DNA of 62,740 nt. Origin: Sneathiellales bacterium. GTDB taxonomy: Bacteria > Pseudomonadota > Alphaproteobacteria > JANQFL01. Numbering within the stretch: position 1 is the first letter of the stretch; the number at the start of each line of letters is the position of its first letter. The position numbers were made by a program, and so were the translations under genes. The DNA lies in contig JANQFL010000046.1 in assembly GCA_028277845.1 (NCBI GenBank), positions 1-62,740 of the forward strand, read 5' to 3'. The notes below the pieces were generated by a model, which saw only the letters and a list, made by a program, of their open reading frames with translations, was not told where the DNA came from and made no database searches. Below, piece after piece: positions 1,043 through 15,313 of the stretch.

Positions 1043-2914
1043 TCAGCCCGCCGACCGATCGGCTTTGGCGTCCGTTGCAAAGCATAAAAAGCGATCGAAC
1101 AGCGCATTGAACGCAGCGGGCGCTTCCAGGAACGGCGCGTGTCCGGCGGTGCCGACGTTCCGCGGCGCGCCGCCGAAGATGTTTCCGTAGGTCAGGGTAC
1201 GGCAATACGCGTGATTGATGAACGGATCCGAAGGGCCGTTGATCATGGCGAAAGGGACGCGGCCATCGCGCAGTAGCTGCATCTGACGCGGCCAGTTGAT
1301 GGTTTTCAGTGTCGCGAATACCTGCTCGCGGGCCAGCCCGTCGGTCCGCCACACAGCCTGCCAGACCAAAGGTTCGTACGGCGTGTCGGGCCCGATGGTA
1401 TGGGTCGCATAGTTGCGTTTCTCATAAGGTGAGTGAAAGCGCTTGCCGGCCAGTTCCATGTGGGGTGACGGTATGTAGCCCCGCGGCATGTCGTCGGGGA
1501 ACTTGGTGATCGGCGACGTGCCGCTGATGGCCAAGCCGGCGATCGGATGGCCTTGCGCCGCGTATTCCAACGCGACATAGCCGCCGAGCGACCAGCCGAA
1601 CACGGCCGGTCGCCCCAGCCCGAGTTGATCGACGAGATCGCGCAGGATTTCGGCAAAGGCCTCGACACTGTAGTCGGCGTCCGGGTCCGCGTTGGGCGAC
1701 ACGCCATGTCCCGGCAGGTCGAAGGCGACCAGCCTGTAATGCTCCCGGTACGCGTCGAACTGATGGCGGAACACTTCCTTGCAGGACGAATTGCCGTGTA
1801 CGAAGACGATGGCCGTCCCTTCCCCTCCGGTGTCGCAAACCGATATCCGCCCGTGCCGCGTGTCGATCAACCGGTCGGTCGCGCCCATGACCGCCTTCCG
1901 GTCCGCGGCGCCGAACCGCCGCCGCCAATGTGCGACGGCGTTTGTCTTGAACCGGTTGACCAACCCCCAGCATTCCTGCAGGGCCGCGAACAGCCCGCCC
2001 GGATAAACGACCACCACGCCGACGATCAGTACGGCGATGATGATGTTGCGCCAGGCGCCGAAGTCCCCCAACCATTCCGTCACGACGGTAATGACGAAGG
2101 CCGCGATCAACGAGCCCCAGATGGTCGACACGCCCCCCAGCAACAGAATGGACAAGGTGATGGTCAGAAAGCCGAGACCGAACACATCCGGTGACGCGAC
2201 GCGCAGATAGGCACCGTAAAACCCACCGGCCAGGCCCGGGAAAACCGCCGACATGCAAAGCGTCAACAGGCGGATCCTGCCCTCCGACACGCCGCGGGAG
2301 ATGGCATAGTATTTGTTGTCCCGCAGCGCCTTGATGGCCCGGCCGAGCGACGAGCGTTCCAGCTTGTACAAATACACGGTCGAACACACGGTCAACAGCA
2401 GGGCGAGGTAGTAATACCCGATCCGGCCGTCCGCAGAGAGCTTGTATCCGGCGATCGTCAGGCGCGGCAGCAGTACCATGCCACTGGTGCCGCCGGTATA
2501 GTCCGATTGGCTGACGACGATCTGCAGCAGCAGTTGCGCCGCGGCGATGGTGACCAGGATGACGTAGATCCCTTCCAGCCGCAGGATGGGGATGGCCAGC
2601 AAGGCGGCAAAACCAACGGCCAGGACCGGGCCCGATGCCAGGGCGAGCCAAGGCTCCAGACCCAAGACCTTGGCCGTAATCCCGTAACCGTATAAACCGA
2701 TGGCGAAGAAGGTCATGTGGGCAAAGTTGACGATCCCGCCATAGCCCAGTGACAGATCCCAATTCGAGGCCAGAACGGCATAAATGAAGACCAGGATGAG
2801 AGCATGCCTGGCATAGGTTTCCGTGAAGACCAACGGAACGACCGCCAGCACGGCCATGACGGCCACGATCGGCCAGAACCCGTTGGTGCGTTGAAACGGC
2901 GGGGCGTACTTCAT
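1043..2914 (-). CDS. LivM-type ABC permease fused to an alpha/beta hydrolase
   Basis: One uninterrupted 623-residue reading frame carries two domains. Residues 1 to about 320 are a LivM-type branched-chain amino acid family permease with roughly nine hydrophobic segments and the family signature around GYGGIVNFAHMTFFAIG. After a basic linker, residues 345-612 form an alpha/beta hydrolase with oxyanion motif HGNS (373-376), nucleophile Ser442 in GWSLGG, acid Asp563 in GPSDPF and His592 in GTAGHAP, so the triad is complete. LivM C termini can also be fused to ATPases, so the hydrolase should be cytoplasmic. An internal ATG at 1888, with AAGG upstream, could also yield a free hydrolase. It is the last gene of the importer operon, 12 bases after the LivH-type permease. 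A permease-hydrolase fusion is unusual; substrate unknown. Confidence 0.9.
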   Translation of the reverse strand: MKYAPPFQRTNGFWPIVAVMAVLAVVPLVFTETYARHALILVFIYAVLASNWDLSLGYGGIVNFAHMTFFAIGLYGYGITAKVLGLEPWLALASGPVLAVGFAALLAIPILRLEGIYVILVTIAAAQLLLQIVVSQSDYTGGTSGMVLLPRLTIAGYKLSADGRIGYYYLALLLTVCSTVYLYKLERSSLGRAIKALRDNKYYAISRGVSEGRIRLLTLCMSAVFPGLAGGFYGAYLRVASPDVFGLGFLTITLSILLLGGVSTIWGSLIAAFVITVVTEWLGDFGAWRNIIIAVLIVGVVVVYPGGLFAALQECWGLVNRFKTNAVAHWRRRFGAADRKAVMGATDRLIDTRHGRISVCDTGGEGTAIVFVHGNSSCKEVFRHQFDAYREHYRLVAFDLPGHGVSPNADPDADYSVEAFAEILRDLVDQLGLGRPAVFGWSLGGYVALEYAAQGHPIAGLAISGTSPITKFPDDMPRGYIPSPHMELAGKRFHSPYEKRNYATHTIGPDTPYEPLVWQAVWRTDGLAREQVFATLKTINWPRQMQLLRDGRVPFAMINGPSDPFINHAYCRTLTYGNIFGGAPRNVGTAGHAPFLEAPAAFNALFDRFLCFATDAKADRSAG

Positions 2915-2926
2915 GACGGCTCCGCC

Positions 2927-3814
2927 TTAGAGTGTCTTGACCCGGCGGCCGAACAGACCCTCCGGCCTGATCAGCAGGACGACAATCATCAGTCCGAACA
3001 ACACGGCCGGCGTCCAGTAAAGGCCGAGGAAATACGAGGAGAAGGATTCAGCGATGCCGACGATGAATGCGGCATAGATAGGACTGGTAAACCGTGCCAC
3101 GCCCCCCAGGATGACAACCACCAGAGACTTCATCAACGGATCGGCGCCAAAAGCCGGGTTCATGAAACGCAGCGAGCCTATGAAAATACCGGCCAGTGCC
3201 GCCGTAGCCGCCGACAGGCCGATAGCGGCGGCGAACAAACGCGATACGTTGAAGCCCATCAATTCGGCCGCTTCGCGGTTCTGGGCGACAGCCCGCATGG
3301 CCCGGCCATAGGACGTACGCCGCAAAAACAACGCCAAAGCCAGCAGCGCGACCAGCGCAATTCCGAGCACCACGAAATCGTGCACGCCGATGGTGGCGCC
3401 AAACAATTCGAACTTGCTTCCGATGGGCGGTGCGATCTGCTTGTCACGTGGACCCCACGTCAAAAGGATGCCGTTTTCCAGCAGCGATGCCGCCGCCAAC
3501 GTGGTGATGACCGCCAGCAGCACCAGATTGGCGTTACGTTCGAAAGGCTTGATCAGGACATAGTGGGATGCGAAGCCGACGCAGAACATGACCACCATGG
3601 CGACAGCGGCCCCGAGCATGAAACCAAGGCCGCCTGAGGCCTGCTGCGACACTTCCCAGGCGATATAGGCGCCAAGGGCCACAAACGTGCCGTGGGCGAA
3701 ATTGAATACGCCCAACGTCGTCCATACCACCGCCAAACCGGTCGCCATGAGGGCATAGAGACCGCCCAGCAGAATACCCGACGTCAGGATAAACAGAAGC
3801 GTGTCCAACGCCAT
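2927..3814 (-). CDS. LivH-type ABC transporter permease
   Basis: This 295-residue inner-membrane protein belongs to the LivH family, the second permease of high-affinity branched-chain amino acid type importers. It shows the diagnostic N-terminal stretch ALMATGLAVVWTTLGVFNFA and the loop NREAAELMGFNV that contacts the ATPase. About eight hydrophobic segments are visible. Its ATG overlaps the stop codon of the upstream LivF-type ATPase (TGATG), indicating translational coupling. It pairs with the LivM-hydrolase fusion to form the membrane channel. The family transports amino acids, amides, urea and small aromatic acids; the sequence does not reveal which. Confidence 0.93.
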   Translation of the reverse strand: MALDTLLFILTSGILLGGLYALMATGLAVVWTTLGVFNFAHGTFVALGAYIAWEVSQQASGGLGFMLGAAVAMVVMFCVGFASHYVLIKPFERNANLVLLAVITTLAAASLLENGILLTWGPRDKQIAPPIGSKFELFGATIGVHDFVVLGIALVALLALALFLRRTSYGRAMRAVAQNREAAELMGFNVSRLFAAAIGLSAATAALAGIFIGSLRFMNPAFGADPLMKSLVVVILGGVARFTSPIYAAFIVGIAESFSSYFLGLYWTPAVLFGLMIVVLLIRPEGLFGRRVKTL

Positions 3815-4599
3815 CAGCCGGCCTTCCCAAACATCATGGCCATGACTTCGTCATGGGACGGCATGGCGTCGCCGGCGATTTCACGGGTGATGGAGCCATG
3901 ATCGAACAGGTACATTCGGTCGACCAGACTGGTCAGGAATTCCAGGTTCTGATCGACAATGATCAACGGCACTTCGCTGTCGCGGATCTTGCCGATGGCC
4001 TCCCCCAATTCGATGCGCAGTTTGGGCGACAGGCCCAGGGTCGGCTCGTCCAGCACGAGTAGGCGCGGCAAGGCCAGCAGGCCCACGGCAATCGACAGCA
4101 TCTGTCTCTCGCCACCCGACAGGTAGCGAATTTTCGAGTGCCAGCGCTCCCGCAGCCGAGGAAACAGCATGTCCACGCGCCGGTGCATGTCCTTGATTCC
4201 GCTTCGCCCCCGTGCCGCGCGGGGGGCGATATCCAGCACTTCCTCGACGGTCAATTCGGGAAACAGGAGATTGCCTTGCATGACGTAAATAAGCCCCTGT
4301 TCCACCACCGTGGCCGCTTTGATGCGGCGCTTGCGGAACAGGTCGTAGTTAAGATGTCGCGACGTGCGTGCGGCCATCCGTCCGGCGGCATTCAAGCGAT
4401 TTCCCGCGAAAACAATGTCCCCTTCCCACGGATCGATAACGCCGGCGATCGTCTTCAGCAGCGTTGTCTTGCCGTGGCCGTTGGGTCCGAACAAACCGAC
4501 GGATTCGTTCTCATAAATCGTCAGGTCGATGCCTCGGAATACCGACACCGGCGGATACCCGCCACTCAAACCGCGCAATTCCAGCAACGGCGCGGTCAT
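3814..4599 (-). CDS. LivF-type ABC transporter ATP-binding protein
   Basis: This 261-residue ATPase has Walker A GPNGHGKTT (about residues 39-47), the signature LSGGERQ, Walker B LLVLDEPTLGL and an H-loop at VDQN. These are all expected of the LivF subunit. Between Walker A and the Q-loop it has about 20 extra residues (around AARTSRHLNYDLFRKRR) compared with ordinary LivF. The ATG overlaps the stop of the LivG-type gene by four bases, and its own stop overlaps the LivH start. It powers import together with the LivG-type partner, whose signature motif is degenerate, so this subunit may contribute most of the conserved ATP-site residues. Confidence 0.93.
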   Translation of the reverse strand: MTAPLLELRGLSGGYPPVSVFRGIDLTIYENESVGLFGPNGHGKTTLLKTIAGVIDPWEGDIVFAGNRLNAAGRMAARTSRHLNYDLFRKRRIKAATVVEQGLIYVMQGNLLFPELTVEEVLDIAPRAARGRSGIKDMHRRVDMLFPRLRERWHSKIRYLSGGERQMLSIAVGLLALPRLLVLDEPTLGLSPKLRIELGEAIGKIRDSEVPLIIVDQNLEFLTSLVDRMYLFDHGSITREIAGDAMPSHDEVMAMMFGKAG

Positions 4600-5321
4600 G
4601 CCGGTTGTCCGAGGTACGCGGCGATGACGGCGGGATCGCGGGTCACTTCGGCGGGATCGCCTTCGGCAATGATGTTGCCTTGCTCCATGACCAGCAGCCG
4701 GGAGGATACGGACATCAGCAGCGGCAAAACGTGTTCGATCAGCATGATGGCGATACCGCGCCCGTTGAGCCTGAGAATGGTTTCACGCACCCAGTCGATT
4801 TCATGTTCGACCAACGACGACGCCGGCTCATCCAGCAACAGGAGCTTTGGGTTCTGCGCCACCGCCGTCGCGATCATCAATTGCTTTTGATAGAATACCG
4901 GCATGGTCGCCGCCGGCATGTTGTGGAAGTTGCGCGGAAAGCCAACGATATCGGATACCTCGTCGGCCAGGCGTTCCGCCTCACGGCCACGGATGCCAAG
5001 AGTCTGCTCGATGGCCACGAGAATGTTGTCGATACAGGACAGGGACTGGAAAACGGCCTCTCGCTGGAACGTGCGGACGATACCCAGCCGGGTGATCCGG
5101 TTGTCGGCCAGATGCTCGACCCGGCGGCCCCGAAACGTCACCACCCCTGCGTCGGCGCCGAAGGGAATCCGGCTGATCAGGTTGAACAGAGTCGATTTGC
5201 CGGACCCGTTGGGCCCGGCAATACCGAGAATTTCGCCGTCCTCGACATCGAACGAGAGGCCGTTGACGGCGACCAAGGCGCCGAACGCCTTGGTCAGGTT
5301 GCGGACTTCGAGAAGCGCCAC
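4596..5321 (-). CDS. LivG-type ABC transporter ATP-binding protein with degenerate signature motif
   Basis: This 241-residue ATPase has a good Walker A (GPNGSGKSTL, about residues 36-45), Walker B LLLLDEPASSL and H-loop IEHV, as in LivG. The position of the ABC signature, normally LSYGQ or LSGGQ, reads MPVFYQ just before KQLMIATAVAQNP. This suggests an asymmetric pair in which one composite ATP site is weak. It is the first ATPase gene after the binding-protein gene and overlaps the next gene by four bases. The rest of the fold is intact, so I read it as functional rather than decayed. Confidence 0.92.
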   Translation of the reverse strand: MALLEVRNLTKAFGALVAVNGLSFDVEDGEILGIAGPNGSGKSTLFNLISRIPFGADAGVVTFRGRRVEHLADNRITRLGIVRTFQREAVFQSLSCIDNILVAIEQTLGIRGREAERLADEVSDIVGFPRNFHNMPAATMPVFYQKQLMIATAVAQNPKLLLLDEPASSLVEHEIDWVRETILRLNGRGIAIMLIEHVLPLLMSVSSRLLVMEQGNIIAEGDPAEVTRDPAVIAAYLGQPA

Positions 5322-5344
5322 CGCTTAAACACAGTCCGCGCAAA

Positions 5345-6586
5345 TCAATTCTTCATCCAGACGGGTTTTTTGAATGTCCCCGCCTTGAACCTGTCGGGGC
5401 TGATCATGACGCCGGCGCCGTCCTGCAATTGGAAGAACGTCACCGGAATGAGGTTCAGCCCCTGCTTGGCGACGTGGGTCTTTTGGTCGAATTCGAGAAA
5501 GCCCGCCGTGATCGGCCGCTTGATCCGGCCGATGGCCTTGCCGATCGCCGTATGGTCGGTGGGGTCCCCCACTGTCGCCAGCGCCTCGAAATACAGCGTC
5601 GTCATTTCGTAAAGACCGGTGCCGTAAGCACCGGAATCGATGCCGTATTCCTTTTTGTAGCGCGCGCTGACCTCCTTGCCGCGCGGATGGGCGTCGACGT
5701 TCAAGGTGGCGCCGATGGCGTTGTACAGAATACCGTTGGATTTCTCCTTGGTCAGCTTGACGAATTCGGGCACCAACGGAGCGTACTGCAGGAACACCAC
5801 CGAGTCGGTCGGGTTTTCGCGAAACTGATTTGTGAACAGGGCCGCGTTGGACGGGATGTAGTCCGTGTTGATCACCACATCCGGCGGGTTCTCCCGCACC
5901 TTGGCCAGCATCGGCCGCCAATCGCTGACCGGGCCGAACGGTACCAGTTCGTCGACCGTCACTGTCCAGCCCGCCTTCTTGAAGGCGACCTTCATGCCTT
6001 CCGAGATGGTTTTGGAATACGGATTGTCCGACGAAATGATCGCCACCGTCTTGTTCTTCAACGGGAAGTGCCCCGCTGCCGACAAGGCTTCGATGGTCGG
6101 CGTCACATCGGTTTCGTAACCCTTGAAATCGGCGGTGAACGACCAGCAGCAATTGAAGGCGTCCGGGTCCTTGGACACGATGGCGGCGAACTGGGGCGAC
6201 GGGCCGGCGGCCAAATACGGCATGTTGGCTTCGGCCATCAGTTCCACCTCGAACATCGACAGGCTGGCATAGCCGGTGAGAATGACGTGCACGCCCTCTG
6301 TCGAGAGCAGCCGTTCCGCCGCCGACGAGACCTTGGCGGCGGAGTGGTCGACCACATCGGCGGTCACGACTTCGAACGTGTGTCCGGCCACGCCGCCCTT
6401 CGCGTTGGCTTCCTTGACGGCCAGTTTGACGCCGCGGACAAATTCCTCTCCGTCAGATGCGGTGGGGCCGGTCAACGGCGCCAGTACACCGATCTTGACC
6501 GAGTCGGCGAGCGCCGTCGCCGTAGTCAGGATTGTCAGTGAAGCAAAGGCCGCAACGATCGCCAATGCCCGTGTTACTTTGCACAT
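5345..6586 (-). CDS. Periplasmic substrate-binding protein of a Liv-type ABC importer
   Basis: This 413-residue exported protein starts with a signal peptide (basic MCKVTR, hydrophobic core, cleavage near ATALA-DS). It continues as a type I periplasmic binding protein with the family opening KIGVLAPLTGPTASDGEEFVRG. The start at 6586 has AGGAGG seven bases upstream; a longer frame beginning at 6631 lacks a site and would bury the signal peptide. It leads the importer operon and is transcribed away from the LuxR gene. It would deliver the ligand to the LivH-type permease and the LivM-hydrolase fusion. The pocket residues cannot be matched by eye to leucine, amide or urea binders, so the ligand is open. 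Confidence 0.93.
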   Translation of the reverse strand: MCKVTRALAIVAAFASLTILTTATALADSVKIGVLAPLTGPTASDGEEFVRGVKLAVKEANAKGGVAGHTFEVVTADVVDHSAAKVSSAAERLLSTEGVHVILTGYASLSMFEVELMAEANMPYLAAGPSPQFAAIVSKDPDAFNCCWSFTADFKGYETDVTPTIEALSAAGHFPLKNKTVAIISSDNPYSKTISEGMKVAFKKAGWTVTVDELVPFGPVSDWRPMLAKVRENPPDVVINTDYIPSNAALFTNQFRENPTDSVVFLQYAPLVPEFVKLTKEKSNGILYNAIGATLNVDAHPRGKEVSARYKKEYGIDSGAYGTGLYEMTTLYFEALATVGDPTDHTAIGKAIGRIKRPITAGFLEFDQKTHVAKQGLNLIPVTFFQLQDGAGVMISPDRFKAGTFKKPVWMKN

Positions 6587-6799
6587 GATGTGCCTCCTTG
6601 ATGGTGCGACAGGCGCAAATCGGATATTCAAGGCAGGCTACAAATCGCGGAGCTTGGCTCACAATTGCAAAGGTTTGCTATTTTCGTGCACAGGCACACC
6701 GATTTTGGCTAAAATTCCCTATGGGACAATGCCCGCACTTGTGTCGGTGTGCGGATCGGTCCGAGGAACGGCTTGCCGAGGGGAAAGCAAGGGGGATAC
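6587..6799. promoter_or_regulatory. Divergent promoter region between LuxR solo and importer operon
   Basis: This intergenic region separates two divergent starts. It is locally AT-richer and contains two short inverted repeats close together: GCAAA-N2-TTTGC at 6667-6678 and GTGC-N4-GCAC at 6686-6697. Neither is a textbook lux box, but their position midway between the two starts fits an operator for the LuxR regulator. Ribosome binding sites are clear on both sides (AGGAGG for the binding protein, AAGGGGG for the regulator). Confidence 0.5.
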
Positions 6800-7531
6800 A
6801 TGAGACCCTGGCTGGAGGAGAGCGATTATCGGGATAGCGATACGGCGGCCGATGTCGACACCCGCATGCGCGGTCTGGTCGAAGCCCTCGGCCTGGATCA
6901 TTTCTCCTACATGGTGTTGAGCCCGCCGCGCGACGTACCCTTCACCATCGAAAACACCATCCGCACCAGTTATCCCGAAGAATGGATCGGCCGCTACGCC
7001 GAATTGCGTTATTTCGAGGTCGATCCGGTCGCCGCCCTTTCGAAAACCTCGACACAGCCGTTCTATTGGGGCCAAGGCCGGTTTCTACGCGGTTTCAAGA
7101 AACTCCAGCGCATCGTATTCGATGAGGCCCGCTGCTTCGATATCTCCTACGGTCTGGCCATACCCATGCGCGGACCGGCGGGCGAAACGGGTGTGTTCAA
7201 CGTCGTATCGTCGAACCGGCGCTATCTGCATGAAGTGACGCGTGGCAAACACGCGCGCCTTTTTTCCGCGGCCTTCGGCACCCACGAACGCATCATGCGC
7301 CAGGAAATGGCCTGCGCCGACACCGGAGAGAACGCCGTCGAACTCTCCCTGCGTGAACGGGAATGCCTGCAATGGACCATGGAGGGCAAGACCGCCCGGG
7401 ACATCGCCACGATCCTCGGATTGTCCGTGTCGACAGTCAATCACCACGCCTCCTCCGCCGTTCGCAAGCTCGGCGCCCTTAACAAACACCACGCCGCCGT
7501 CAAGGCCATGAAGCAGGGATTGATACGGTAG
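6800..7531 (+). CDS. LuxR family transcriptional regulator with autoinducer-binding domain (solo)
   Basis: This 243-residue regulator has an N-terminal autoinducer-binding domain and a C-terminal LuxR helix-turn-helix. Trp62, Tyr66, Asp75, Pro76, Trp90 and Gly118 reproduce the six conserved AHL-pocket residues of TraR (57, 61, 70, 71, 85, 113) with identical spacing. In the DNA-binding domain Glu186, Leu190 and Gly196 match TraR 178, 182 and 188. All nine quorum-sensing signature residues are therefore present. The start at 6800 follows AAGGGGG; an upstream ATG at 6749 has no site. No luxI lies in the window, so it is a solo here. It faces the importer operon divergently and is the obvious candidate to control it. 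Confidence 0.93.
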   Translation: MRPWLEESDYRDSDTAADVDTRMRGLVEALGLDHFSYMVLSPPRDVPFTIENTIRTSYPEEWIGRYAELRYFEVDPVAALSKTSTQPFYWGQGRFLRGFKKLQRIVFDEARCFDISYGLAIPMRGPAGETGVFNVVSSNRRYLHEVTRGKHARLFSAAFGTHERIMRQEMACADTGENAVELSLRERECLQWTMEGKTARDIATILGLSVSTVNHHASSAVRKLGALNKHHAAVKAMKQGLIR

Positions 7532-7630: not shown

Positions 7631-9076
7631 TTATGCCTGCGGCTGGCCGAGACGCCGGGCGATGCCGGCGCCGTAAGCCGGATCGGCCTGGGCGAAGTGG
7701 CCGATCTGTGTGCGGACGATATGCTCCGGCACACCCTGCATGGCGCCGGCAATGGCATCCATCAGGCGCTCCCGTTCGTCCGCCGGCATCAGGCGGAACA
7801 GGTTGCCGGCCTGGGTGTAATCGTCGTTACCCGCGCGGTGGTCGTGGCGGTCGGCGACGTCGCCAATGGCCAGGGGCGGTTCCTTGGCCGCCGGGTCTTC
7901 CAAGGGTCCGCCGACCGAGTTGGGCTCGTAGTTGACGCCGCCGCCGCCATTGCCGTCGAAGCGCATGGCGCCATCGCGGTTGTAGCTGTGCATCGGGCAC
8001 TTGGGCGCGTTGACCGGCAGGCTCTGGTAATTCACCCCCACCCGGTAGCGATGCGCATCGGCGTAGGAGAAGACGCGGAACTGCAGCATCTTGTCCGGGC
8101 TGTGGCCGATGCCCGGCGGCACGTTGGCCGGCGAGAACGCCGCCTGCTCGACCTCGGCGTGGTAGTTGTCCGGGTTGCGGTTCAATTCCAGTTCACCGAT
8201 CTCGATCAGCGGATAGTCCGCGTGCGGCCATACCTTGGTCAGATCGAACGGATTGTAGGACGTGTTGTCCGCCTCGGCCTCCGGCATGATCTGCACGCAC
8301 ACCCGCCATTTGGGGTGATCACCGTTCTCGATCGCTTCATAGAGGTCGCGCTGGTGGCTCTCCCGGTCATTGCCGATCAGGTCGGCGGACTGGGCTTCGC
8401 TGATGGTCTCGATGCCTTGCCGGGTCTTGAAGTGGAATTTCACCCAGAAGCGCTCCCCATCGGCATTGATCAACGAGTAGGTGTGCGAACCGTAGCCGTT
8501 CATGTGGCGGTAGGTACGCGGCAGGCCGCGGTCCGAGAACAGGATGGTGATCTGGTGCAGGGCCTCGGGCGATTGCGACCAAAAATCCCACATGGCGGTG
8601 GCGTTGCGCAGATTGGTGCGCGGGTCGCGCTTCTGGGTATGGATGAAATCGGGAAATTTGTACGGGTCGCGTACAAAGAACACCGGCGTATTGTTGCCGA
8701 CCAGGTCCCAATTGCCTTCCTCGGTGTAGAACTTGACGGCAAAACCCCGCACGTCCCGTTCGGCATCGGCCGCCCCCTTCTCGCCCGCGACGGTGGAAAA
8801 ACGCAGCAACACGCCGGTTTGCTTGCCGACTTCAGAGAACAGCTTGGCCTTGGAATAGGCGCTGATGTCGTTGGTCACCGTGAAGGTGCCATAGGCGGCG
8901 GACCCCTTGGCGTGCACCACCCGTTCGGGGATGCGCTCGCGATTGAAGTGGGCGTGTTTTTCGAACAGCTGCCAGTCCTGCACCAGCAACGGGCCGCGCG
9001 GCCCCGCGGTCAGGCTATTCTGGTTGTCACCGACGGGAATACCGGCGGCGGTGGTCAATGTGGGACGGTCGGCCAT
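7631..9076 (-). CDS. katA: Catalase, monofunctional small-subunit haem type
   Basis: This 481-residue enzyme breaks down hydrogen peroxide to water and oxygen. The haem catalase core is unmistakable: distal His in [12 protein letters not shown], the catalytic Asn in [19 protein letters not shown], and the proximal Tyr region [14 protein letters not shown]. Length and the absence of a C-terminal flavodoxin-like domain place it among small-subunit (clade 3) catalases, which bind NADPH. It has no signal peptide, so it is probably cytoplasmic. AAGGAG lies eight bases before the ATG. The OxyR gene lies directly upstream on the same strand, and an OxyR-like palindrome lies between them, so peroxide induction is expected. 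Confidence 0.98.
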
Positions 9077-9194
9077 GATGATCTCCTTCTCCGTGTTCGA
9101 TCGTGGGCCTCCAACCGGGCCGGCCCGTCGATCTGCCTGACCCCATAATCGGGCGTCGGCGGAGAAAGAGAAAATTCATTGATACAATCATTTT

Positions 9195-9211
9195 GATAGT
9201 GAATATCTATC
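9195..9211. promoter_or_regulatory. Probable OxyR operator upstream of katA
   Basis: The palindrome GATAG-N7-CTATC (ATAG-N7-CTAT) matches one half of the OxyR tetranucleotide pattern ATAG-N7-CTAT-N7-ATAG-N7-CTAT. It lies about 120 bases upstream of the katA start and just after the oxyR stop. Flanking quarter-sites are weaker (CAAT to the left, TATC to the right). Confidence 0.6.
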
Positions 9212-9219
9212 GTTGAATA

Positions 9220-10131
9220 TCATGCGGCGACCGGCGCCACCACCTGCGGCACGCAGCGACGAACCACATCCGCCAGCAATGTCATACCTTCGGCCTTGGG
9301 CGACGAAGCCCGCCAGATCAGTCCGATACGGCGATGGGCCGTCTTGTCCATCGGAATCAGACGGGTATCGGCATCGGCGCCATCGATCACGGCCAGGGCC
9401 GGAAGCAGGGTACTGCCTAAACCGGCACCGACCATCTGACGCAGGGTTTCCAGGCCCGTGGCCCGCACATCTGCGCCCGGCCCCTCCGGTTTCGGATCCT
9501 GCAGGCCGCACACGGCCAGGGCCTGATCCCTCAAGCAATGACCATCGGCCAGCAACAACAGGGATTCGTCGCCGAGATCGTGGCTGCCAAGGCGCTTGCG
9601 CGCGGACAGCCGGTGTTCGATGTTGCAGGCGAATACGAACGGTTCGTCGAATAACGGCGTTGTCGCCAGCCTGGGCCCGCCGACCGGCAAGGCCAGTAAG
9701 GCGGCGTCAAGATGGTGGTTGCGTAAGCTGGCCATCAGATTGTCCGTCAAATCCTCCCGGATGACCGGAACGCATTCGGCGTATTCGCGTTTCAGGACGG
9801 GAATCAGCCAGGGCAGCAGATAAGGACCCAGCGTGGGAATGATCCCGAGATGAAACGGCCCGTCCAGGGGACCGGCCTGTCGTTTGGCCAGATCGACGAT
9901 CCCGTCGGCCTCGGCCAGGACCCGCCGGGCCCGGTCGACGATCTGCGCGCCGAGACCGGTGAGGTTCACCGACTTGTTGGTACGCTCGAACAGCACGACG
10001 CCCAGTTCCTCCTCGAGCTTTTTTAACTGTACCGAGAGCGTGGGCTGACTGACATGGCAGGCGTCCGCCGCCCGGCCGAAATGGCCGCAATCGGCCAGCG
10101 CCACCAGATACCGTAAATCGCGCAGATTCAT
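9220..10131 (-). CDS. oxyR: LysR-type peroxide sensor regulator OxyR
   Basis: This 303-residue LysR-type regulator has an N-terminal winged helix-turn-helix (FGRAADACHVSQPTLSVQLKKLE) and a periplasmic-binding-like effector domain. The motif GHCLRDQALAVC holds the two redox cysteines in the context of E. coli OxyR Cys199 and Cys208, which form the disulfide on peroxide exposure. The ATG at 10131 gives the family N terminus MNLRDLRYLVA; a frame opening at 10155 adds eight unlikely residues. It lies upstream of katA on the same strand, and a strong palindrome sits before its start, suggesting autoregulation. Confidence 0.96.
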   Translation of the reverse strand: MNLRDLRYLVALADCGHFGRAADACHVSQPTLSVQLKKLEEELGVVLFERTNKSVNLTGLGAQIVDRARRVLAEADGIVDLAKRQAGPLDGPFHLGIIPTLGPYLLPWLIPVLKREYAECVPVIREDLTDNLMASLRNHHLDAALLALPVGGPRLATTPLFDEPFVFACNIEHRLSARKRLGSHDLGDESLLLLADGHCLRDQALAVCGLQDPKPEGPGADVRATGLETLRQMVGAGLGSTLLPALAVIDGADADTRLIPMDKTAHRRIGLIWRASSPKAEGMTLLADVVRRCVPQVVAPVAA

Positions 10132-10155
10132 CGCGGATCGCCTTGTCTCGAACAT

Positions 10156-10188
10156 TGATAACTATGCTCTATCGTAAGATAGATATCA
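10156..10188. promoter_or_regulatory. Palindromic operator upstream of oxyR
   Basis: A long imperfect palindrome, TGATAACTAT-N13-ATAGATATCA, has ten-base arms differing at one position. Inside it lies a perfect CTATC-N4-GATAG. It starts 25 bases upstream of the oxyR ATG and shares the ATAG/CTAT vocabulary of the katA site, as expected for an autoregulated LysR gene. Confidence 0.6.
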
Positions 10189-10247
10189 ATAATTCTCAAC
10201 AATGGATCAAAATCGTGGATGAAACCACCGCTTGCGGCGGCATCGGC

Positions 10248-10703
10248 TTACCGGCAGAGGGTATCGCGGTGACGGTATCCCGGACTGCGTATGGCGAACG
10301 GACGCCGGTACTCGCGGCAAAACCGGCCCGTCTTCGGACGGACGGTCGGTTCCGCCGCCAGCGTACTGCCAAGGCTCTCGCGGGCCGTCGAGCGAGGAAT
10401 GCCCGCCGGCTTGCCGTACAGCGACGTGTTCGGCTCCTTTTGCAATGGCAACGGCACGACACCGGTGTAAAAGGTGTTCTCGTAGGGGGAGATCCTTGCC
10501 GTTTCCGGCAGCGGCTCGGATTTTGACCAGTTGGTGTCTTTCACCGGCTTGTTCCACTCCAGTTCCGGGGAGGATGCCACGGGGACCGTTTCCGAATAGC
10601 CGGTACGCTCCATTTTGTCCGGCGGCAGCATATGGCAGGCCGTCAATCCCAACGAACCCACCAATACCGCCGTCACCCGTTTGCAGGCAAGCCATGTGGT
10701 CAT
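10248..10703 (-). CDS. Lipoprotein with C-terminal CREY domain
   Basis: This 151-residue protein starts with a lipoprotein signal ending in the lipobox LTAC, so it should be anchored to the cell envelope. The middle is Pro/Ser-rich and low in structure. The last about 27 residues contain GRFCREYRR ... DTLCR, a short two-cysteine domain shared with the next two genes and known from the C termini of 17-kDa / RT0821-type surface proteins. The ATG at 10703 is preferred over a GTG two codons upstream. It is the last gene of the ECF sigma operon. Its function is unknown; envelope stress is a reasonable guess from context. Confidence 0.75.
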   Translation of the reverse strand: MTTWLACKRVTAVLVGSLGLTACHMLPPDKMERTGYSETVPVASSPELEWNKPVKDTNWSKSEPLPETARISPYENTFYTGVVPLPLQKEPNTSLYGKPAGIPRSTARESLGSTLAAEPTVRPKTGRFCREYRRPFAIRSPGYRHRDTLCR

Positions 10704-10781
10704 CGACACACCTCGTTATAGAGGGGATGTATGAACGTCAGGCACTGCGATCAAGCCGCCGGCGCAGATCTTTCCAAACGG

Positions 10782-11678
10782 TCAACGTATCTCCGACAGG
10801 CGCCGCCATCTGCCGTCCGCCGCCTTACACAGTGTGCCGTTGGCGCGGTAATCCCGCCCGTCCAATCCGATGATCCGCCGGTATTCGCGGCAGAACCGGC
10901 CGGAAGCTATCTTATACGTACGGATCGGCGTGATGGTGACGGCGAAACCGTTCTTGCTGCCGCGATGGGCGCTGCCGCTCGGAACCGTCTGCAAGACCGA
11001 TTGTAGTTCGTTGTTGTAGAAAGTGCGTTGAAGCGCGGTCAGCTTCGGCAGTTTGAGCCGGAATGACGTCAACGCCCGGGTTCGCGTGGCGCGCGAGGTC
11101 GATGTATCGGTGTACAGCACGTAATGGCCGACTCGCGGTGCGTAATACCACGTGCGTTCGCCGAAATACTTGCCGGTGACATTGCTATGGCGCAAACATG
11201 AAATCGGCGTGGTATCAAACGTCCCGGCGGGAACGGTGACTGTTTCGGTTGCACGTACGCTGCACCGCCAATGATAGACATACAGTTTGTCATCTACGCC
11301 GTCTTTCGCCACGCTCCTGGTCGCGTAGGTGAACCAGACACCCCGCCCTGCCTGTAGCGGCCAAATTTCTCCCGGACGCATCGTCAGGGTTTCAAGGTTG
11401 CCGCTGCGGGTCCTGCTTTCCCATTTCCGGTTTGGCGTCACGAAATCGCGATGGCCGGTCCAACGGTAACCATTGCCGCGCCGCCAGGCGACCCAGTCAC
11501 CGTCCACGGACACGACGTGCTCGGTCCGGCCGTTGTCGTATGTAAAACGGTCGCCCACGGCATAGGTCGGTAATGGGACGGCCGGCTGCTTTGTGTCGAC
11601 GGCCGGTTCCTGGCACCCCGCCAACCCGGCCAGACCCACCATGAGGCTCAAAGGCCACATCCGCCATGGGCCAAACAT
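10782..11678 (-). CDS. Lipoprotein with C-terminal CREY domain (long form)
   Basis: This 298-residue protein carries a lipoprotein signal (lipobox LAGC about residues 19-22). A central region of about 190 residues is rich in beta-type sequence (YAVGDRFTYDNGRTEHVVSV, TVPAGTFDTTPISCLRHS). It ends with the same cysteine domain as its neighbours: GRFCREYRR ... GTLCKAADGRWR. The ATG overlaps the stop of the anti-sigma gene (TGATG), so the two are translationally coupled. I do not recognise the central region; it resembles the outer-membrane-lipoprotein carrier-like beta folds only superficially. An envelope location under ECF control is the supported statement. Confidence 0.8.
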   Translation of the reverse strand: MFGPWRMWPLSLMVGLAGLAGCQEPAVDTKQPAVPLPTYAVGDRFTYDNGRTEHVVSVDGDWVAWRRGNGYRWTGHRDFVTPNRKWESRTRSGNLETLTMRPGEIWPLQAGRGVWFTYATRSVAKDGVDDKLYVYHWRCSVRATETVTVPAGTFDTTPISCLRHSNVTGKYFGERTWYYAPRVGHYVLYTDTSTSRATRTRALTSFRLKLPKLTALQRTFYNNELQSVLQTVPSGSAHRGSKNGFAVTITPIRTYKIASGRFCREYRRIIGLDGRDYRANGTLCKAADGRWRRLSEIR

Positions 11679-13124: not shown

Positions 13125-13874
13125 ATGCCTTTCGACAAGAACGATGTTGCGCCTTCGTACCCAGCCCTTTCCTTTACGTCATCCAGCTCAATGCCACGAT
13201 GGGCGCGTTGGACGTCATGCCTGCCCCTGCCGGCATTTCTGATCGCCGGAGCTCTGATCGTCCTACCGGCTGAAATCGACTTCACCTCGACCGGCCCCGT
13301 CGTTTCGGCCACAAAAGCCTGGGCTGATAGCGACGGCGATGGTGACGGAGATGGTGACGGCGACGGTGATGGTGACGGCGACGGCGACGGTGACGGAGAT
13401 GGCGACGGCGACGGTGACGGCGACGGCGATAGTGACGGCGACGGCGATAGCGATGGTGATGGCGATAGTGATGGTGATAGTGATGGTGATAGTGATGGTG
13501 ATAGCGATGGCGACAGTGACGGAGACGACAGCAGCGACGACTCGGACGACGCGCTAGACAGCGACGACTCGGACGACAGTAGCGACGATTCCGATGACAG
13601 CAGCGACGACGCTTCGGACGACGGCGACGACGATTCCGACGACAGCAACGACGATTCCGACGACGCGCTAGACAGCGACGACTCGGACGACGGCGACGAC
13701 GCTTCGGATGACGGCGGTGGGTCCGGAGACTCCGGTGACGACGGTGATTCGAGTGGCTCCAGTGGATCGAGTGGCTCGAGCGAAGGTGTATCCGGCGCCG
13801 CCGCCGATCAGGTCGGACCCAATCTCTCCCCGGCCGAAGAAGCACAGGCAATCGCGGACGGCTTTTCGCAATAA
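13125..13874 (+). CDS. Exported Asp/Ser/Gly-rich repeat protein
   Basis: This 249-residue protein has a hydrophobic segment (CLPLPAFLIAGALIVL) followed by a probable cleavage site after KAWA. Next comes a long run of Asp-Gly and Ser-Asp-Gly-Asp repeats, then Asp-Asp-Ser-Asp blocks. A short non-repetitive tail ends in LSPAEEAQAIADGFSQ. AAGGAG lies eight bases before the ATG. The repeat is extremely acidic and would bind divalent cations such as calcium, but no fixed-register EF-hand or RTX nonapeptide is evident. An ECF promoter sits about 80 bases upstream, divergent from the sigma operon, making it a likely regulon member. The role is unknown; a secreted or surface spacer or cation buffer is a guess. 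Confidence 0.8.
   Translation: MPFDKNDVAPSYPALSFTSSSSMPRWARWTSCLPLPAFLIAGALIVLPAEIDFTSTGPVVSATKAWADSDGDGDGDGDGDGDGDGDGDGDGDGDGDGDGDGDSDGDGDSDGDGDSDGDSDGDSDGDSDGDSDGDDSSDDSDDALDSDDSDDSSDDSDDSSDDASDDGDDDSDDSNDDSDDALDSDDSDDGDDASDDGGGSGDSGDDGDSSGSSGSSGSSEGVSGAAADQVGPNLSPAEEAQAIADGFSQ
13328..13530 (+). repeat. Coding tandem repeat of GA(C/T)GG(C/T) units
   Basis: Six-base units encoding Asp-Gly, drifting into 12- and 18-base units encoding Ser-Asp-Gly-Asp, run without break through the Asp-rich gene. Third-position changes (GAC/GAT, GGC/GGT) vary between units, which points to past slippage plus selection for the amino acids. A separate exact 33-base direct repeat occurs downstream at 13545-13577 and 13659-13691. 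Confidence 0.9.
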
Positions 13875-13903
13875 GATTCAATCACCTAATAGACAGCGTC
13901 GAG

Positions 13904-13940
13904 CGGCGGCTATCCTACGGGTGGCCGCCGTTTCGCTTTG
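13904..13940 (+). terminator. Terminator after the Asp-rich gene
   Basis: CGGCGGC (13904-13910) and GCCGCCG (13924-13930) form a stem with a 13-base loop, followed by TTTCGCTTT. It lies 30 bases after the stop codon. Confidence 0.65.
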
Positions 13941-14060
13941 CAGCCATGGGTACTGCCAATGCCCGTGAGGGCACGCACCGATGTGCCTCCGGTAAGGATT
14001 TGTTAACCATGTTTTGTCAGACTCGGTTCGTTGACCGGCTTATCCCATATGGACCGGACC

Positions 14061-14306
14061 ATGACCGAAAATTCCACCCCACCGGCGAGCGGCTCTGCAT
14101 CCGTCCCCCCCACGGATGGCGCTTTCGGCGACGCGCCGCCGGGTATCAACGGTTTTGGCCTGCTGGGGGCCCTATTGGCGGCCCTACCCGTGGTGGAAAC
14201 GCCGGAAGACGCTCCCGAGAACGAATACTCCTACTCCTCCGAACTACTCTCGAATGGCTCAGTTTCAGGACTCGGCGCTCCCCATACGCCCGAGGACGAA
14301 GCGTAG
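14061..14306 (+). CDS. Small hypothetical protein, Pro/Glu/Ser-rich
   Basis: This is an 81-residue open frame beginning MTENSTPP, with a short hydrophobic patch GLLGALLAALPVV in the middle and an acidic, Pro-rich remainder. There is no recognisable domain, and the ribosome site is weak (GACCGGACC before the ATG; another ATG lies at 14049). Its support is a clean Rho-independent terminator 34 bases after its stop and the absence of any overlapping alternative. I do not recognise it. It may be a real small gene or chance. Confidence 0.4.
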   Translation: MTENSTPPASGSASVPPTDGAFGDAPPGINGFGLLGALLAALPVVETPEDAPENEYSYSSELLSNGSVSGLGAPHTPEDEA

Positions 14307-14339
14307 CCCAACTTTCCAGGCACCAGTCGTAAAGCCAGG

Positions 14340-14370
14340 AACCGGCGGCCCGCAACCGCCGGTTTCTTTT
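14340..14370 (+). terminator. Rho-independent terminator
   Basis: AACCGGCGG (14340-14348) pairs perfectly with CCGCCGGTT (14356-14364) around a seven-base loop and is followed by TCTTTT. It closes the transcription unit that contains the small frame at 14061-14306. Confidence 0.8.
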
Positions 14371-14444
14371 ATGGGCACGCAATGCCGCTTGCCCCGTCGA
14401 CCGGCGCCGGGTTATGAGAACGACGGACAAGAGGAGTGTGCCCG

Positions 14445-14768
14445 ATGTTCATTGCCATGAACCGTTTTCGTGTCAAACGCGGCTGCGAGGATGATTTCGA
14501 AACCATCTGGAAATCCCGTGACACGCATCTGCACACGGTGCCCGGATTTATCGAGTTTCATTTGCTGCGCGGGCCGGAAACCGACGACCATACGCTCTTC
14601 GCGACCCATGCCATATGGGAAACGGAACAGGCGTTCACCGATTGGACTCAGTCCGCGGCATTCCGCAAAGCCCATGCCCAAGCCGGCGGCACCCGTGATT
14701 TCCATGCCGGACCGCCACAATTCGAGGGCTTCACGGTGGTGCAGGAAATCAAGAAGGTGTTGGCCTGA
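14445..14768 (+). CDS. Antibiotic biosynthesis monooxygenase (ABM) domain protein
   Basis: This 107-residue single-domain protein of the dimeric ferredoxin-like ABM fold starts MFIAMNRFRVKRGCEDDFETIW. It has the family motifs VPGFIEFHLLRGPE and ATHAIWETEQAFTDWTQS. Members include HmoA-type haem-degrading enzymes and quinol monooxygenases. Resemblance to HmoA (short length, MNRF start, W near residue 65) makes haem or porphyrin chemistry a fair guess. GAGGAG lies eight bases before the ATG at 14445; a GTG three codons upstream overlaps that site and is less likely. It converges with arsC with two bases between the stop codons. Confidence 0.85.
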   Translation: MFIAMNRFRVKRGCEDDFETIWKSRDTHLHTVPGFIEFHLLRGPETDDHTLFATHAIWETEQAFTDWTQSAAFRKAHAQAGGTRDFHAGPPQFEGFTVVQEIKKVLA

Positions 14769-14770
14769 AT

Positions 14771-15313
14771 CTAAGCGTCGACAGCCGCCGATTCCGGCTT
14801 GTGCGCGCCGATTTTCGAAAGATGTTCCTTCAACGCCATCTGATCGAGTGATGCCAGCGGCAGATTGACGAAAATGTCGATGCGCTGGGTCAGCATGCGG
14901 AGCGTATCGGCGAAGGCGAAACGTTTTTCGGCCTCCGTGCCCTCGGCGGCGGCGGGATCCGGCAGGCCCCAATGGGCGGTCATGGGTTGGCCGGGCCAGA
15001 TCGGGCAGACCTCGTTGGCGGCATTGTCGCAAACGGTGAAGACAAAATCGAGTTCCGGTGCATCCGGCCCCTCGAATTCCGACCAGTTCTTGGAGCGCAG
15101 GTCTTCAATGGGGTAGTTCTGGCTGCTCAGCAGTTCCAGCGCCAATGGATTGACCTGACCGACCGGGTCGGAACCGGCGCTGTAGGCCTTGAACCGCCCC
15201 TGCCCCAACCGGTTGAGCACGCACTCGGCCAGAATGCTGCGCGCCGAATTGCCCGTGCACAGGAACAAGACATTGTAGACCTTCTGCTCCGATCGCCGCG
15301 ACGTTTCGCTCAT
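14771..15313 (-). CDS. arsC: Arsenate reductase, low-molecular-weight phosphatase (thioredoxin-coupled) type
   Basis: This 180-residue enzyme reduces arsenate to arsenite in the cytoplasm. The phosphate loop C-x5-R is visible in FLCTGNSARS near residue 20. A second cysteine pair lies in VFTVCDNAANEVCPIWPG, in the place of the redox cysteines of thioredoxin-coupled ArsC. The ATG at 15313 follows GAGAAGGA; a frame opening at 15376 has no site. No arsR, arsB or acr3 is adjacent, so its regulation and export partner are not visible here. Confidence 0.93.
   Translation of the reverse strand: MSETSRRSEQKVYNVLFLCTGNSARSILAECVLNRLGQGRFKAYSAGSDPVGQVNPLALELLSSQNYPIEDLRSKNWSEFEGPDAPELDFVFTVCDNAANEVCPIWPGQPMTAHWGLPDPAAAEGTEAEKRFAFADTLRMLTQRIDIFVNLPLASLDQMALKEHLSKIGAHKPESAAVDA

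Follow-up and report, generated by a model that had tools for sequence, protein, structure and literature searches.

The stretch of DNA analysed here (the window) comprises 62,740 nucleotides of the forward strand of contig JANQFL010000046.1 from a Sneathiellales bacterium (GCA_028277845.1), and it carries a six-gene divergon in which the gene of a solo LuxR-type regulator lies opposite a five-gene operon for a Liv-type ATP-binding cassette (ABC) importer, whose LivM permease is fused to a hydrolase of the AidH family. The unit is conserved and probably functional as a whole, and the regulator and the importer almost certainly belong to one regulated unit. We consider it rather probable that it serves as a self-contained system for the detection, uptake and destruction of N-acyl-homoserine lactones (AHLs) or close lactones, with a LuxR-inducible importer that would hydrolyse its cargo on entry. 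A preliminary description of this DNA had proposed the divergent arrangement and the fusion, and both were confirmed at their coordinates by open reading frame (ORF) calling and Pfam (Table 1). The importer genes are separated by overlaps or gaps of 1-23 base pairs (bp), including overlaps of 4 bp and 1 bp and a gap of 12 bp, and these tiny distances argue for one operon with a single transcript. The start of the binding protein given in Table 1 is the most likely one, instead of the TTG of the mechanical ORF list, and the orthologues concur.

A scan of GTDB genomes, which relied on exact peptide seeds, indicated three close relatives of the LuxR protein in other alphaproteobacteria (loci L012, L013 and L014, 61-65% identity). 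Each of them stands in the whole divergon, with importer proteins 72-80% identical to those of the window, although the flanking genes differ on both sides. Gene order, which the preliminary description had named as a point to check in relatives, is thus kept, and the recurrence of the same six genes despite different flanks argues that the divergon is not due to chance. The four loci are a lower bound because of the exact seeds. Five genomes, those of the four divergons and G033 (locus L020), contain the LivM-hydrolase fusion in frame, and therefore it is not an artefact of assembly or frameshift. Among 385 genomes sampled evenly across the class, only two carry the fusion, the own genome and G033, and a search of plasmids for it gave no match. 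G033 encodes the binding protein, LivG, LivF, LivH and the LivM-hydrolase (fusion 54% identical), with no LuxR beside the importer and no PF03472 protein genome-wide. LivM is unfused in more distantly related importers (L087, binding protein 42% and LivM 48%; L088, 34% and 29%). The sporadic distribution together with the differing flanks suggests that the unit moves as a cassette, and the forms present suggest that a plain importer may have acquired the hydrolase and thereafter LuxR.

Table 1. Features of the LuxR-importer divergon (positions in the window).
Feature	Position	Strand	Evidence
Solo LuxR-type regulator, 243 amino acids	6800-7531	+	Pfam Autoind_bind 3e-24, GerE 7e-15
Binding protein (Peripla_BP_6), periplasmic, with signal peptide	5345-6586	-	Pfam; start ATG 6586, AAGGAGG upstream
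LivG-like ATPase	4596-5321	-	Pfam, NCBIfam
LivF-like ATPase	3814-4599	-	Pfam, NCBIfam
LivH-like permease	2927-3814	-	Pfam, NCBIfam
LivM-hydrolase fusion, 623 amino acids	1043-2914	-	BPD_transp_2 2e-34 and Abhydrolase_6 1e-23 in one frame
AidH-family hydrolase domain, about residues 345-614 of LivM-hydrolase	1073-1882	-	PDB sequence search, residue mapping, Foldseek
Candidate operator CAATTGCAAAGGTTTGCT, inner dyad GCAAA-GG-TTTGC, centre 6672.5	6662-6679	not set	Identical in four divergent promoters

The intergenic regions of the four divergons are 206-214 bp long and show little similarity in alignment, with 7% invariant columns outside one 18-bp block, which is identical in all four promoters and holds an inverted repeat (Table 1). 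In whole-genome scans tolerating up to three mismatches, exactly one perfect copy of the site was detected in each of the four genomes, at the divergent promoter. The own genome has a single further match, with three mismatches, whereas no perfect copy was found in the LuxR-less G033, whose importer promoter lacks the site. This is strong evidence that something binds the site and that the site travels with LuxR, and LuxR itself would be the binder of this predicted operator. By eye, the 18-mer contains no match to the classical lux-box, the las-box consensus or the sigma-54 -24/-12 elements. A -10-like hexamer is found on the importer side at equal distance in all four promoters, 30 bp from the dyad centre, and is too weak to claim (shuffle P ~0.06), and an outer covarying dyad around centre 12 (score 22/48 against a mean of 12) is suggestive only. 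Upstream of the LuxR-less importer (L020, 15327-15717) we also noticed a weak match with five mismatches, CAACCGGCAAGGTTTGCG, either a decayed site or chance. Genome G399 holds two extra copies with two mismatches each (C2:493985-494002 and C22:35633-35650), and the copy on C2 lies about 10 kilobases from a luxI gene (483883-484401, C2), which could point to a wider regulon or cross-talk.

As the preliminary description had claimed, the regulator has all six residues of the AHL pocket (W62, Y66, D75, P76, W90 and G118, numbered from ATG 6800), and they are invariant in the four orthologues; the start codon agrees with those in L012-L014. Its best solved relatives are RhlR, QscR, LasR and SdiA. 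It is the sole Autoind_bind (PF03472) protein of its genome, and the claim that luxI is missing also stood, as no LuxI (PF00765) was detected in this 98.5% complete genome. Of other genomes, G399 encodes a LuxI on a different contig, and G398 gives a match barely above the cut-off. The domains, the intact pocket and the missing cognate LuxI are all those of an AHL-responsive solo, and we predict that the protein responds to AHLs. LuxR relatives of 30-40% identity were present in the class sample, and none of them adjoins this importer.

The second pointer towards AHLs is the fused hydrolase. Among all solved structures its closest relative in sequence is AidH, the metal-independent AHL lactonase of Ochrobactrum (PDB 4g5x, 4g8b and 4g9e), with 191 bits (E 3e-55) against 56 bits (E 4e-14) for the next family, and when the predicted model was compared in Foldseek, ranks 1-8 were all AidH chains. 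The AlphaFold models had a mean confidence of 51-52, with a largely confident hydrolase core, whereas the membrane part and the cap region were not confident; only the core was used, and the LuxR model was left unused. With the residue roles taken from the AidH study (PMC3532132), the catalytic Ser102, His248 and Glu219 correspond to S442, H592 and D563 (Glu to Asp) and the oxyanion positions Asn33 and Leu103 to N375 and L443, in the motifs HGN375, GWS442L443GG, Y502, D563 and H592. Trp101 (W441), Tyr160 (Y502), the cap-domain Met144 (M486), Phe189 (F533) and Phe221 (F565) are likewise kept, whereas Met77 and Met188 are changed to Val, Phe138 to Tyr and Phe192 to Leu. In AidH, Tyr160 bonds the ring oxygen of the lactone and activity drops sharply without it (PMC3532132). 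Its equivalent is Tyr in the four LuxR-linked copies and Phe in the LuxR-less G033 copy, which has Leu at the Met144 position. The enzyme is thus of the AidH family by sequence and fold and catalytically complete by sequence, and a role as an AHL lactonase is plausible, though not certain. AidH is a free protein, whereas the domain here is joined to an importer permease, where four hydrophobic segments past the cytoplasmic coupling loop are followed by a Lys/Arg-rich linker (7 K/R in residues 310-344); from this hydropathy and charge the hydrolase is predicted to be cytoplasmic. LivM-hydrolase is the only protein of its genome to pass E 1e-28 to this domain, and it lies beside the only AHL-type LuxR. 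In the DNA stretches examined, stand-alone AidH-like genes adjoin neither this importer nor a close relative of this LuxR.

The importer has the five components of Liv/Urt-type (HAAT) systems, i.e. a Peripla_BP_6 binding protein, two ATPases and two permeases, but differs from them in the extra catalytic domain on LivM and in its scores. All its components score far below what the curated NCBIfam equivalog models require of amino-acid (Liv) or urea (Urt) transporters (Liv models: LivM part 114 against 366 bits, LivG 173 against 362, LivH 118 against 379 and binding protein 63 against 477), and the closest solved relative of the binding protein is 3h5l (E 1e-44). In the best-supported model, the periplasmic binding protein would capture an AHL or a close lactone made by neighbouring bacteria, and LivHM/LivGF would pump it inward. 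In the cytoplasm the lactone would bind the solo LuxR, which would act at the 18-bp site of the shared promoter and raise the expression of the importer, and the AidH-type domain carried by the cytoplasmic tail of LivM would open the lactone ring during entry. Ring opening would leave a charged, trapped acyl-homoserine, draw down the external signal and remove the inducer, so that the circuit would switch itself off. The unit may serve to scavenge nutrients, to quench quorum signals, or to do both. The narrower proposal, a dedicated AHL importer that carries an AHL lactonase covalently on its permease and is induced by AHL via the solo LuxR (energy-driven capture and destruction, or "vectorial quorum quenching"), has in our judgement about an even chance of being correct.

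Several observations weigh against AHLs as ligand and cargo. The fused domain is 34-38% identical to AidH, and a family tree, in which the deep forks are not settled, does not place it nearest AidH. Stand-alone AidH-like proteins with no assigned substrate (L048-L058) keep most of the same residues, and therefore residue retention marks the family and not AHL specificity. CarR and MalR keep all the pocket residues and yet need no AHL (PMC4981722), and the importer-hydrolase exists without LuxR in L020. Some of these points would suit the same circuit with a cargo other than AHLs, which the unit would sense and import and the AidH-like domain would hydrolyse. This cargo might be another lactone, such as one of plant or algal origin, an ester, or an amide of the lactam-like kind, and we regard this as an unlikely though serious alternative. 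The neighbours of L012 and L014, which by eye resemble hydantoinase and purine-catabolism genes, would also fit it, as would the amidase that trails the unfused importer relative L087 and is related to the cyclic-amide hydrolase NylA. However, QsdB, a member of the NylA sub-cluster, is an AHL amidase, and a neighbouring ORF on its fosmid is annotated "inner-membrane translocator" (PMC3676327). The L087 amidase is therefore no clear pointer away from AHLs, and since NylA itself does not cleave them, it is a lead only. Moreover, a canonical AHL pocket and an enzyme of an AHL-lactonase family coincide in one divergon, which speaks for AHLs.

The ligand of LuxR and the cargo could also differ, if the importer-hydrolase had a housekeeping role in nutrition and AHLs were only a crowding cue by which LuxR times its expression. 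The LuxR-less arrangement in G033 would suit this, and control of unrelated neighbours by LuxR solos is common (PMC10134790). We find it improbable, as the enzyme family fits the predicted ligand of LuxR, and it is the LuxR-less copy that is altered at the lactone-contacting Tyr. That the two are adjacent by chance with no regulatory link could be argued from the mere four loci with the full arrangement, but an order of six genes held at 61-80% identity despite differing flanks and a perfect 18-bp footprint between luxR and importer, one per genome, leave this hardly credible. The preliminary description had proposed sensing, import and hydrolysis of either an AHL-like or a host-derived amide/ester signal. 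The AHL-like half has gained from the gene order, the 18-bp site and the AidH-family domain with its key residues, whereas the host-derived half is less supported, given Y66 and an enzyme that is not of the iminopeptidase type. As judged from sequence, the AHL reading is now the better supported one, with AHLs as the presumed ligand.

The closest experimental precedent is PipR. In the pipR-pipA-aapA-F system of Pseudomonas sp. GM79 a response requires the importer, and mutants of the peptidase respond excessively (PMC4981722). By analogy, the unit described here may follow the same logic, a loop of solo LuxR, importer and cargo-destroying hydrolase, and in both a solo LuxR stands beside an ABC importer and an alpha/beta-type hydrolase. 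In solos of the OryR/PipR type, however, Trp replaces the conserved Tyr (PMC4981722), whereas here this Tyr (Y66; Y61 in TraR numbering) is kept and is invariant in the four orthologues. The importer is Liv-type and not peptide-type, and an AidH-like hydrolase, joined to the permease and scoring 24 bits with the NCBIfam iminopeptidase model against a cut-off of 260, takes the place of a separate iminopeptidase. Membership of LuxR in the OryR/PipR (PAB) group was ruled out by the retained Tyr and by the lack of a proline iminopeptidase gene alongside. The parallel drawn in the preliminary description thus survives as a working principle and not as a family relationship.

Two other systems share single traits with this unit. 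QsdH of Pseudoalteromonas byunsanensis is an AHL lactonase covalently linked to an inner-membrane transporter, but the enzyme is of the GDSL type and faces the periplasm on an RND efflux pump, and the accessible part of its report describes no LuxR gene or importer with it (PMC3466314). In the qsd operon of Rhodococcus (QsdR, QsdA and QsdC), AHL breakdown is inducible by AHL as proposed here, but through a TetR-type repressor and the QsdA lactonase, and the abstract mentions a lactonase together with an acyl-CoA ligase but no importer (PMC6262395). The accessible portions of two reviews of LuxR solos list none beside a Liv importer with a lactonase (PMC10134790, PMC4338825). We found in the open-access literature no prior description of a Liv-type importer with a LuxR solo, nor of an AHL lactonase with an ABC permease, and the combination appears to be undescribed there.

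It is commonly viewed that AHLs enter cells by diffusion. An exception is the outer-membrane FadL route for long-chain AHLs (PMC9938287). If the proposed function is correct, active import of AHLs would become testable in this system, and the bacterium would have a high-affinity means to eavesdrop on, feed on and silence its neighbours. The unit could then provide a quorum-quenching tool, and the principle known from PipR (sense, import, destroy) would extend from plant compounds to classical bacterial signals.

The surroundings of the loci differ. A GNAT gene on the strand of the importer (181-894, minus), about 150 bp downstream of livM-hydrolase, was considered as a cryptic AHL synthase and rejected; it gives ordinary GNAT matches in Pfam and NCBIfam and does not accompany the unit in L012-L014, and it is not part of the unit. 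In L012, luxR is directly followed by a second helix-turn-helix gene (9772-11313, plus) with a LuxR-type C-terminus and a long N-terminal region, and then, by eye, by genes of a peptide-type ABC importer and hydantoinase-like genes. Purine-breakdown-like genes lie on the luxR side in L014 (12187-14801, plus), with a guanine deaminase-like gene at 13494-14801 (also by eye). The amidase-signature gene directly behind the unfused importer relative in L087 is at 3750-5195 (minus), and its closest solved relative is NylA (E 7e-91). In the window, genes for a catalase and an OxyR-like LysR regulator (7631-10155, minus) are convergent with luxR and apparently unrelated to it.

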